In this document: one piece after another, positions 10,317 through 12,688 of the stretch | Position numbering within the stretch: position 1 is the first letter of the stretch | Layout of the letters: every line of letters starts with the position of its first letter | Origin: Bacteroidota bacterium | Lineage (GTDB): Bacteria > Bacteroidota > Bacteroidia > Chitinophagales > Chitinophagaceae | NCBI GenBank assembly: GCA_018267535.1 | Contig: JAFDYH010000074.1 | Coordinates: 1-32,333 of the forward strand | Direction of reading: 5' to 3' | DNA length: 32,333 nucleotides | Program-made: the position numbers and the translations under genes | Notes under the pieces: model-generated | The model's database searches: none | Told to the model about the DNA's origin: nothing | The model's input: only the letters and a program-made list of their open reading frames with translations

Positions 10317-10347
10317 TTTGGTCTATCATTTTAGTATACTATTTTTG
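10317..10347 (+). promoter_or_regulatory. Bacteroidota-type promoter of the reductase leader
   Basis: TTTG at 10317-10320 and TATTTTTG at 10340-10347 are separated by exactly 19 bases and match the Bacteroidota sigma consensus (TTTG, about 19 bases, TAnnTTTG) at every fixed position. Transcription should begin near 10353, about 18 bases before the leader-peptide ATG. The same spacing is found at 30207-30237 before the isomerase gene. Confidence 0.72.
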
Positions 10348-10370
10348 TTGTCCATAAAATTAGTAGATTA

Positions 10371-10433
10371 ATGAAATTGCCTGCACCAGCTTATTGTTGT
10401 ACTTCCTGTTGCCTTGTAACACTGTGCGGATAA
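10371..10433 (+). CDS. Cysteine-rich leader peptide of an attenuator
   Basis: A 20-residue open frame (ATG 10371, TAA 10431-10433) contains five cysteines, four of them in two pairs: YCCTSCCLVTLC. It begins about 18 bases after the predicted start site of a consensus promoter, and it ends 27 bases before a strong terminator hairpin that precedes the sulfite/nitrite reductase gene. This is the arrangement of amino-acid attenuators such as those of trp and his operons. Shortage of charged tRNA-Cys should stall ribosomes at codons 9-14 (10395-10412). The frame, promoter and hairpins are seen; translation and cysteine sensing are inferred. It is too short for routine gene finders. Confidence 0.78.
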   Translation: MKLPAPAYCCTSCCLVTLCG

Positions 10434-10475
10434 GCTGCAGCATATATTCAATAATATATTAAAAGGCTTCCGCAC
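10424..10475 (+). promoter_or_regulatory. Predicted antiterminator of the cysteine attenuator
   Basis: GTGCGGA (10424-10430) and AGC (10433-10435) can pair with GCTTCCGCAC (10466-10475): ten base pairs with a two-base bulge (TA, 10431-10432). The 5' arm covers the last Cys codon and the stop codon of the leader peptide; the 3' arm is the ascending arm of the terminator. The two hairpins therefore exclude each other. A ribosome at the leader stop codon would hide the 5' arm and favour termination; one stalled at the earlier cysteine pairs would leave it free. Confidence 0.68.
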
Positions 10476-10497
10476 AACTGCGGAAGTCTTTTGTTTT
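10461..10497 (+). terminator. Attenuator terminator hairpin before the reductase
   Basis: A 14-bp stem pairs AAAAGGCTTCCGCA (10461-10474) with TGCGGAAGTCTTTT (10479-10492), including one G-U pair, closed by a CAAC loop. It runs into TTTTGTTTT (10489-10497). It lies between the leader peptide and the reductase ATG at 10517, so it can only act on the leader transcript. This is a regulatory terminator, not the end of an upstream gene, since the upstream gene points the other way. Confidence 0.85.
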
Positions 10498-10516
10498 ATA
10501 ACCATAAAAAATCAAT

Positions 10517-12637
10517 ATGCAAAGTTTCCGGACCGAATTAGAGAATCCATTGGTGGAAAGAGATATTATAGAACTGGAGAGAAAGATTAAAGAGTTCAGG
10601 GATGGTAAAATACCGGATGAAAAATTCCGCAGTCTTCGGCTGGCCCGCGGTGTATATGGTCAAAGACAGCCGGGTGTACAAATGGTGCGGATCAAATTGC
10701 CATATGGTAAAATGACAACAGCCCAATGGAAACGCATCGCCGGTGTATCTGATAAGTATTCAACCGGCAACCTGCATCTTACTACAAGACAGGATATACA
10801 GATACATTTTGTAAGCCTCGACCGAACACCCGAACTATGGTCGGAACTGGAGCAGGATAATATCACCATCCGCGAAGCCTGCGGTAATACAGTAAGAAAT
10901 ATAACCGCTTCTGACCAGGCTGGTATTGACCCGGATGAACTGTTTGATGTAACGCCCTATGCACATGCGGCTTTCGAATATTTTCTACGCAACCCTATCT
11001 GCCAGGATATGGGCCGTAAATTCAAGATCGCCTTTTCCAGCAGTGAAAAAGATACGGCGCTTATTTATATGCATGATGTAGGTGTTATTCCACGCGTCCG
11101 TGAAATAAATGGCAAACAACAGAGAGGATTTAAAGTAGTTATCGGAGGTGGCCTTGGGGCCCAGCCCATCCTTGCACATACTACTTATGAATTCCTGGAA
11201 GAAGACTTATTAATTCCCTACATAGAAAGCATTCTCCGTGTATTTGACCGTCATGGAGAAAGAACAAGCCGTCATAAGGCGAGAATGAAATTCCTCATTC
11301 AAAAGATAGGCATCGATGCATTCAACGAACTGGTGGAAGCCGAACAAAAAGCGTTGGCTGTTCACCGTTATAAAGTGGATCTGTCGAAATTTGATCATCC
11401 TGTTTTACCTGCAGAGGGTTTTGAACCTGGTGCGGTTACAATAGAAAACCCGTTCAAATTTGAGCTTTGGAAAAAGACAAACCTGGCAACGCAGAAACAA
11501 CCTGGTTATTACACGGTTTATATCCGTGTGCCCCTCGGTAACATTCATTCAGAAACAAGCCGCAGACTGATTGAAAAATTAAAGCCTGTTATTGCAGATG
11601 ATATCCGAGTAACGGTTAACCAGGGATTGCAGCTAAGATTTGTTAAACCTGAACATATTGAATACGTTTATTCTGTTTTAGATGCAGAAAAACTAGCCGA
11701 GCCGGGGTTTGGCAGCACGGCTGATATTACCGCATGTCCCGGAACAGATACCTGTAACCTGGCTATTTCCAGCAGCACCGGTATTAGCGCTGCACTGAGT
11801 GAAGTAATAGAAGACGAGTTTCCTGAGTTCCTAGAAAATAAAGAGGTAACAATAAAGATCAGTGGTTGTATGAATTCCTGTGGTCAGCATGGTATGGCCT
11901 CTATCGGTTTTCACGGCAGCTCCTTAAAAGCAAAAGGACAGGTAGTGCCTGCATTGCAGGTATTGATTGGCGGCGCCACATTGGGAAGCGGGAATGGCCG
12001 CATTGCAGATAAGGTAATAAAAGTACCCAGCAAAAGAGGCCCGGATGTTATCCGCTCTTTATTTACTGACTATAAAGCGAATGCAGAACAAAGTGAATCG
12101 TTCAATGACTTTGTTTACCGCAAAGGCGAAAGATATTTTTATGAAGTATTGAAACCATTGACTGATTTAACCACGCTGCAGAGTGAGGACTTTATTGACT
12201 GGGGCCAGGAAATAAAATTCAATACGGCGATCGGAGTAGGTGAGTGCGCCGGTGTGGTTATTGACCTCATTGCCACCTTACTGCTGGAAGCAGAAGAAAA
12301 ACTGGAATATGCAAAAGAAGCATTTGCCAACAAAGCATGGGCTGACAGTATTTATCACTCTTATGCCGCGTTTATTCATGCCGCAAAGGCTTTGCTGTTG
12401 CAGCAGAATATACAGTGCAATACGCAGACAGGTATTATCCGCGATTTTGACAAGCACTTTGTACAAACAGGGCAGTTTAATGGTTATGTAAGCTTTGACG
12501 AGCTGGTACTGCAGATTAATAAGAATGAGCCTTCGGAAGCATTTGCAGCAAGCTATCAGCAACAGGCAAACGATTTTGTAAAACAAGCTGAACAATTCCG
12601 GGAGTTACAGACTGCGGAAGAGAAAGTAATTTCTTAA
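10517..12637 (+). CDS. Siroheme sulfite (or nitrite) reductase with C-terminal HEPN-like domain
   Basis: This 706-residue protein has two ferredoxin-like/siroheme half-repeats. The N-terminal one carries GNLHLTTRQDIQIHF. The siroheme-[4Fe-4S] ligands follow the C-x5-C...C-x3-C pattern: C407/C413 (CPGTDTC) and C451/C455 (CMNSC). This reads as a one-subunit assimilatory reductase fed by ferredoxin or a similar donor; no flavoprotein subunit is nearby. Sequence alone does not separate sulfite from nitrite reductases here, but the cysteine-rich leader favours sulfite reduction for cysteine synthesis. About 115 residues (about 590-700) form an extra helical domain resembling HEPN (SYAAFIHAAKALLLQQ...IIRDFDKHFVQTGQF). 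The usual histidine of the HEPN T-H-K/S-G segment is Gln here (NTQTG), so nuclease activity is unlikely. The transcription unit ends at a terminator at 12659. Confidence 0.9.
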   Translation: MQSFRTELENPLVERDIIELERKIKEFRDGKIPDEKFRSLRLARGVYGQRQPGVQMVRIKLPYGKMTTAQWKRIAGVSDKYSTGNLHLTTRQDIQIHFVSLDRTPELWSELEQDNITIREACGNTVRNITASDQAGIDPDELFDVTPYAHAAFEYFLRNPICQDMGRKFKIAFSSSEKDTALIYMHDVGVIPRVREINGKQQRGFKVVIGGGLGAQPILAHTTYEFLEEDLLIPYIESILRVFDRHGERTSRHKARMKFLIQKIGIDAFNELVEAEQKALAVHRYKVDLSKFDHPVLPAEGFEPGAVTIENPFKFELWKKTNLATQKQPGYYTVYIRVPLGNIHSETSRRLIEKLKPVIADDIRVTVNQGLQLRFVKPEHIEYVYSVLDAEKLAEPGFGSTADITACPGTDTCNLAISSSTGISAALSEVIEDEFPEFLENKEVTIKISGCMNSCGQHGMASIGFHGSSLKAKGQVVPALQVLIGGATLGSGNGRIADKVIKVPSKRGPDVIRSLFTDYKANAEQSESFNDFVYRKGERYFYEVLKPLTDLTTLQSEDFIDWGQEIKFNTAIGVGECAGVVIDLIATLLLEAEEKLEYAKEAFANKAWADSIYHSYAAFIHAAKALLLQQNIQCNTQTGIIRDFDKHFVQTGQFNGYVSFDELVLQINKNEPSEAFAASYQQQANDFVKQAEQFRELQTAEEKVIS

Positions 12638-12658: not shown

Positions 12659-12688
12659 AAACCTTCTGTGATGCAGAAGGTTTTTTTT
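12659..12688 (+). terminator. Intrinsic terminator of the reductase gene
   Basis: AAACCTTCTG (12659-12668) and CAGAAGGTTT (12674-12683) form a perfect 10-bp stem with a TGATG loop, followed by eight T (12681-12688). It lies 22 bases after the reductase stop codon. Confidence 0.88.

Follow-up and report, generated by a model that had tools for sequence, protein, structure and literature searches.

The trp, his, thr and ilv attenuators of enterobacteria combine a short leader carrying runs of end-product codons with four RNA segments in which 2:3 and 3:4 pairing exclude one another, an intrinsic terminator, and one or more downstream genes that make the amino acid. For cysteine, leaders with Cys codons and without terminators were described upstream of cys operons in Actinobacteria (Seliverstov 2005, PMC1262725), and mycobacterial Cys leaders were shown to respond to cysteine (Canestrari 2020, as cited in PMC9094748 and PMC13236596). 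In Rhodobacterales, the uORFC-8-2 motif upstream of cysS is a predicted Cys-leader attenuator with a terminator (PMC8632094). For Bacteroidota, the open-licence literature, beyond which a report may exist, yielded only general comments: one on leader peptides that precede operons for amino acids in Flavobacterium psychrophilum (PMC9723704) and one on short ORFs within long 5′ UTRs of Bacteroides (PMC7366714). In it we found neither an account of Cys-leader attenuation nor a description of cysteine-synthesis control in this phylum.

The window, meaning the whole analysed stretch of 32,333 nucleotides, contains at 10371–10497 what is very probably a ribosome-mediated transcription attenuator of the classical type; it would sense cysteine by way of charged tRNA-Cys, control sulfite reductase, and form one element of a cysteine-attenuation regulon (Table 1). 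As in the trp type, end-product codons are clustered in a short frame, an intrinsic terminator separates this leader from the gene, and an antiterminator sharing the terminator 5′ arm is found in silico. It differs from the trp, his, thr and ilv attenuators in that cysteine is sensed, the phylum is another one, there is no sequence relationship, and several separate operons each have an attenuator of their own. With uORFC-8-2 it shares a short frame containing tandem Cys codons, an intrinsic terminator downstream of that frame, and the proposed logic, yet the two are not homologous: that motif controls cysteinyl-tRNA synthetase in alphaproteobacteria, whereas the present leaders belong to Bacteroidota and precede sulfite reductase and cysteine synthase genes, and the gene downstream of the present leader is a sulfite/nitrite reductase and not cysS. 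The kind of device is already known; the phylum, targets, sequences and mixed architecture are undescribed in the open-licence literature.

Table 1. Features of the sir leader region and the basis of each call (window coordinates)
Feature	Position	Strand	Basis
Bacteroidota-type promoter: TTTG 10317–10320, 19 nt spacer, TATTTTTG 10340–10347	10317–10347	+	sequence; boxes in relatives
Imperfect palindrome GTCTATCATTTTAGTATAC, candidate operator	10321–10339	.	likeness to GTCTAC-N-GTAGAC elements in promoters of other sulfur genes
Leader peptide ORF MKLPAPAYCCTSCCLVTLCG	10371–10433	+	direct translation, orthologue comparison, shuffle test
Segment 1, pairing with segment 2 (anti-antiterminator) without ribosome	10378–10402	+	folding, P 0.35–0.56
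Sensing Cys codons 9–10 and 13–14 (CC TS CC)	10395–10412	+	sequence; constrained folding, P(2:3) = 0.98 with ribosome there
Segment 2 CTGTGCGGATAAGCTG, 5′ half of antiterminator, holding last codons TGC GGA TAA	10422–10437	+	duplex energy against shuffles
A+T-rich hairpin bringing segments 2 and 3 together in antiterminated fold	10441–10461	+	constrained folding
Segment 3, terminator 5′ arm and antiterminator 3′ half	10460–10474	+	terminator call, duplex, folding
Segment 4, terminator 3′ arm and T tail	10479–10497	+	15 pairs then TTTTATAA; −20.5 kcal/mol
Siroheme nitrite/sulfite reductase, probably assimilatory sulfite reductase (sir)	10517–12637	+	PF01077, PF03460; NCBIfam NirA/CysI-like below cut-offs
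Terminator after sir	12659–12683	+	terminator prediction

The earlier note on this DNA had pointed to a Cys-rich frame upstream of a siroheme reductase and behind a consensus promoter, and all three elements hold. The frame translates to 20 residues with five cysteines, the downstream gene encodes NIR_SIR domains, and the promoter boxes fit the TTG / TAnnTTTG consensus of Bacteroidota; TAnnTTTG-like boxes also precede many of the relatives' leaders at comparable distance. Read from the promoter position, the predicted transcription start lies at about 10352–10355, some 16–19 nt upstream of the leader ATG. Among ATG frames of 8–50 residues on both strands of the window, this is the sole case with at least four Cys in eight residues. 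The pattern TGYTGYACNWSNTGYTGY has two matches in the 4.65 Mb genome, namely this leader and that of a cysteine synthase gene, compared with one match for the reversed pattern used as a control. None of the NCBIfam models matches the leader peptides, and no Rfam family (T-box and other cis-regulators, covariance models at gathering score) was found anywhere in the window.

An intrinsic terminator, TAAAAGGCTTCCGCACAACTGCGGAAGTCTTTTG-TTTT at 10460–10493, stands between leader and reductase and thereby makes attenuation plausible. The earlier note had overlooked this terminator and its T tail. The duplex between segment 2 and the terminator 5′ arm, AGGCTTCCGCACAA, reaches −18.1 kcal/mol, against a shuffled mean of −9.7 (p = 0.005). 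Constrained co-transcriptional folding, in which the transcript was grown to 10478–10485 and a ribosome was placed at chosen codons, gave an antiterminator probability of 0.98 with the A site on codons 9–14 (0.60 only at codon 9 in the longest transcript) and of 0.00 with the ribosome at Cys codon 19 or the stop codon, while folding of the source sequence without a ribosome let segment 1 compete for segment 2. Equilibrium folding of the complete leader always favoured the terminator and did not discriminate between ribosome positions, whereas truncated transcripts did; the choice between the two folds would therefore have to be made kinetically, like that of trp.

According to the proposed mechanism, scarcity of Cys-tRNA would stall the ribosome on the CC..CC codons, leaving segment 2 free to pair with the terminator 5′ arm, and RNA polymerase would read into sir. 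With plentiful cysteine the ribosome would reach the stop codon and cover segment 2, upon which the terminator would form and transcription would end before the reductase gene. The earlier proposal of Cys-leader attenuation is supported by the conserved Cys clusters, the terminator and the mutually exclusive antiterminator, and needs correction in three respects: the fifth Cys is not a sensing codon, conservation is confined to the Cys clusters and does not extend to the peptide sequence, and the device is part of a set of three or more operons. Since a ribosome at codon 19 (10425–10427) abolishes the antiterminator in the folding, sensing is limited to codons 9, 10, 13 and 14, and codon 19 is structural, serving as antiterminator RNA.

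Conservation upstream of orthologues, which the earlier note had named as its check, came out in favour of the proposal, as Cys-cluster leaders recur at sir, cysM and cysH far above shuffles and opposite strands. Reductase orthologue loci were fetched from named genomes (80) and by a family search (30). The sir leaders of close relatives read MFTPSFICCCKSCCWLVTCG, ...VTVCCCKICNITQWCG and MITAVWGSCCKSRCFIQICG, those of Mucilaginibacter include MKTTTNNYCKAMMCCCIPGDN, and those of Chitinophaga include MGNRRIRKFVACCWMSMTREACAL; among Chitinophagaceae, Mucilaginibacter and others the peptides differ and only the Cys clusters are common. At least four Cys in eight residues were observed in 11 of 98 sir regions, against 0.02 in shuffles and none on the opposite strands. 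A Cys leader was found in 43 of 52 sir regions with a terminator as against 7 of 46 without (Fisher P = 1.4e-11, calculated over sequences that are related and not independent). Pairing of segment 2 with the terminator arm exceeded shuffles at p ≤ 0.05 in 20 of 38 sir leaders, and 2:3 pairing was stronger within a species (−13.05 kcal/mol) than across species (−10.6 kcal/mol; 0 of 20,000 permutations), so that the conserved codons near the leader end (CG-stop, or EA in Chitinophaga) are best explained as antiterminator RNA.

No terminator was found in 46 of the 98 sir upstream regions, most of which also lack a leader, and in five Chitinophaga regions (L058, L059, L060, L071, L072) the terminator is kept and the Cys codons are gone; the attenuator is thus absent from many lineages, which either lost it or never had it. 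In some of these five, one of which is labelled C. pinensis, an antiterminator-like GGAGGC remains, as would follow from loss of the sensor. Two loci belonging to other families of the class, L326 and L329, also have both leader and terminator ahead of sir. In Pontibacter and Botryobacter (L074, L076, L077, L079, L081, L088, L100, L102), longer frames that terminate in an uninterrupted run of 5 to 10 Cys lie at an unusually large distance of 370–570 nt before sir, with no strong terminator seen between. Met is 3.4-fold over base composition in sir leaders, and Met sensing by them is a possibility; the closeness of Met to Cys did not exceed what leader composition predicts (p = 0.27). A loose CC-N2-CC pattern matched everywhere over 199 genomes and was uninformative.

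Two further operons of the source genome carry such leaders. Its cysteine synthase gene is preceded by MKFQTVNTLCCCTCCCTQHMEGYSGGR (MKFQTVNTLCCCTCCC...) and a terminator, and all nine orthologues of more than 55% identity in the family combine a C4–C6 leader with a terminator; leaders of this kind are missing from paralogues at about 40% identity. The threshold of at least four Cys in eight was reached in 9 of 9 cysM regions (0.03 in shuffles, 0 on opposite strands); 2:3 pairing rose above shuffles in none of the nine species taken singly.

Ahead of the cysH-cysD-cysN-cobA-...-cysG operon, in which cysH was assigned by PF01507 and the remaining genes were named from their sequences, stands MNATNTQCCCCCC, at 48 nt from cysH. 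Leaders are found at 21 of 30 Chitinophagaceae cysH loci, and three leaderless cysH genes of this family sit inside an operon, 2–35 nt after the previous gene; across cysH regions the same Cys threshold was reached in 18 of 37, against 0.08 in shuffles and 0 on the opposite strands. The leaders' Cys codons are a mixture of TGT and TGC, which points to the amino acid as the object of selection and counts against a DNA repeat. As a search pattern in the source genome, CCC alone gave 884 sites and was unusable. The last Cys of the cysH leaders falls 0–2 residues from the stop codon in 24 of 25 frames counted, no intrinsic terminator was found for them, and a C-rich, G-poor spacer follows (292 C, 130 G). 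Because of these three properties the cysH leaders probably act by Rho-dependent or translational attenuation, and since they have no intrinsic terminator, a single mechanism does not cover the regulon.

These leaders resemble the described mycobacterial frames, sharing with them the poly-Cys run beside the stop codon and the absence of a hairpin. More generally, mycobacterial and actinobacterial polycysteine ORFs are like the present leaders in being short frames with Cys-codon runs ahead of genes for cysteine synthesis and in occurring at several operons per genome. The mycobacterial frames are, however, leaderless, and they are described as translational or possibly Rho-type attenuators that lack conserved terminators, whereas the sir and cysM leaders possess intrinsic terminators and antiterminators; that no terminator hairpin follows the leader is true here of cysH only. 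A stop-codon stall site followed by a C-rich, G-poor stretch also likens the cysH leaders to TnaC/Rho-type attenuation in the E. coli tna operon, but tna responds to excess tryptophan by nascent-chain arrest, while for cysH a shortage of Cys-tRNA is proposed and the role of Rho is putative.

With sir, cysM and cysH-cysD-cysN-cobA-cysG, the probable cysteine-attenuation regulon of Chitinophagaceae and neighbours comprises at least three operons. Evenly balanced in our estimation is the wider proposal that sulfate assimilation in these Bacteroidota forms a pathway-wide Cys-tRNA regulon with two attenuator types per genome (trp-type at sir and cysteine synthase; terminator-less and Rho-dependent or translational at cysH-D-N), and that some lineages (Mucilaginibacter, Chitinophaga, L320) may also sense methionine through mixed Met/Cys codons. 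A translation-read device that serves several separate operons, and that each lineage has built anew from different sequences, would explain cysteine-synthesis control in Bacteroidota and would supply a large natural set for the study of attenuator evolution, including species now without Cys codons. The combination of a poly-Cys frame and a terminator would offer a simple search rule for sulfur genes, for example TonB receptors and homocysteine-pathway or siroheme genes.

Several observations were made at other loci. In L320 (8604–8880, coinciding with L241) a pair of Met/Cys-rich leaders, MMMCMCC and CMMMMCCM, lies in tandem before cysH, each with a terminator-like hairpin nearby, possibly forming tandem attenuators for both sulfur amino acids. 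Going by gene identities read from sequence, Cys-rich leaders of relatives (L035 and L066, minus strand; L094:2725; L198:2987; L080:346) are also found ahead of a sir-adjacent TonB-dependent receptor gene and of siroheme methyltransferase (SUMT/cobA), O-acetylhomoserine sulfhydrylase-like and homoserine dehydrogenase-like genes. In the source genome (L299, minus strand; G000:C282, near 2120), about 60 nt separate a CCCC frame that has no ATG from a following heavy-metal-binding-like gene.

A fortuitous origin, in which a TTG/TGT-rich 5′ region beside an unrelated terminator happens to yield a Cys-rich frame, has in its favour that an equally Cys-dense ATG frame arises in 54 of 20,000 dinucleotide shuffles of 10348–10516 (~0.3%). 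It is nonetheless scarcely credible: Cys leaders recur at three operons of the source genome and across many relatives, the opposite strands yield none, and leader and terminator co-occur; moreover, an unbiased scan of the source genome, restricted to four tandem Cys codons, returned 73 sites, of which only the cysH leader is a short ATG frame in an intergenic region. Cys-rich upstream peptides are known to act in metal control in other systems, and the peptide itself, rather than its translation rate, might be the agent here, through thiol-based metal or redox sensing or nascent-chain arrest. This we consider very unlikely, as the peptide is unconserved between genera outside the Cys clusters, its conserved C-terminal codons coincide with the antiterminator segment, and the targets are cysteine-synthesis and not metal genes.

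Control at the promoter deserves more weight. GTCTAC-N4-6-GTAGAC elements overlap or follow the promoters of several sulfur genes (window 10321–10339, L035, L066, L131, L197, L202), and many Mucilaginibacter loci have an Rrf2-like gene immediately ahead of sir, the palindrome being perhaps the operator of such an Rrf2/CymR-like regulator; the source genome has three Rrf2 genes. The palindromes and the Rrf2-like genes beside sir suggest that a second control layer is likely. They would also fit a CymR-like repressor that binds the palindrome and does the controlling, with the leader minor or vestigial at this locus, and to this may be added that such elements occur in the promoters of both sir and cysH leaders and that several sir genes have the palindrome without a leader. 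Repression in place of attenuation would, however, leave the Cys clusters, the terminator and the co-occurrence of leader and terminator unexplained, and is improbable; moreover, the two layers may coexist, just as TrpR repression and attenuation act together in E. coli trp. Attenuation by the leader is the preferred reading.

The sir transcription unit is monocistronic. Its product matched NirA- and CysI-like NCBIfam models below their curated cut-offs, and no sulfite reductase was seen in the cysH-D-N operon of the source genome as read from its sequences. Since sir shares a cysteine-controlled set with that operon, its substrate would be sulfite, and the regulon would help to assign the enzyme to sulfite rather than nitrite. 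The reductase also bears a C-terminal HEPN domain (PF05168, residues 588–696; window 12278–12604), unusual for a siroheme reductase.
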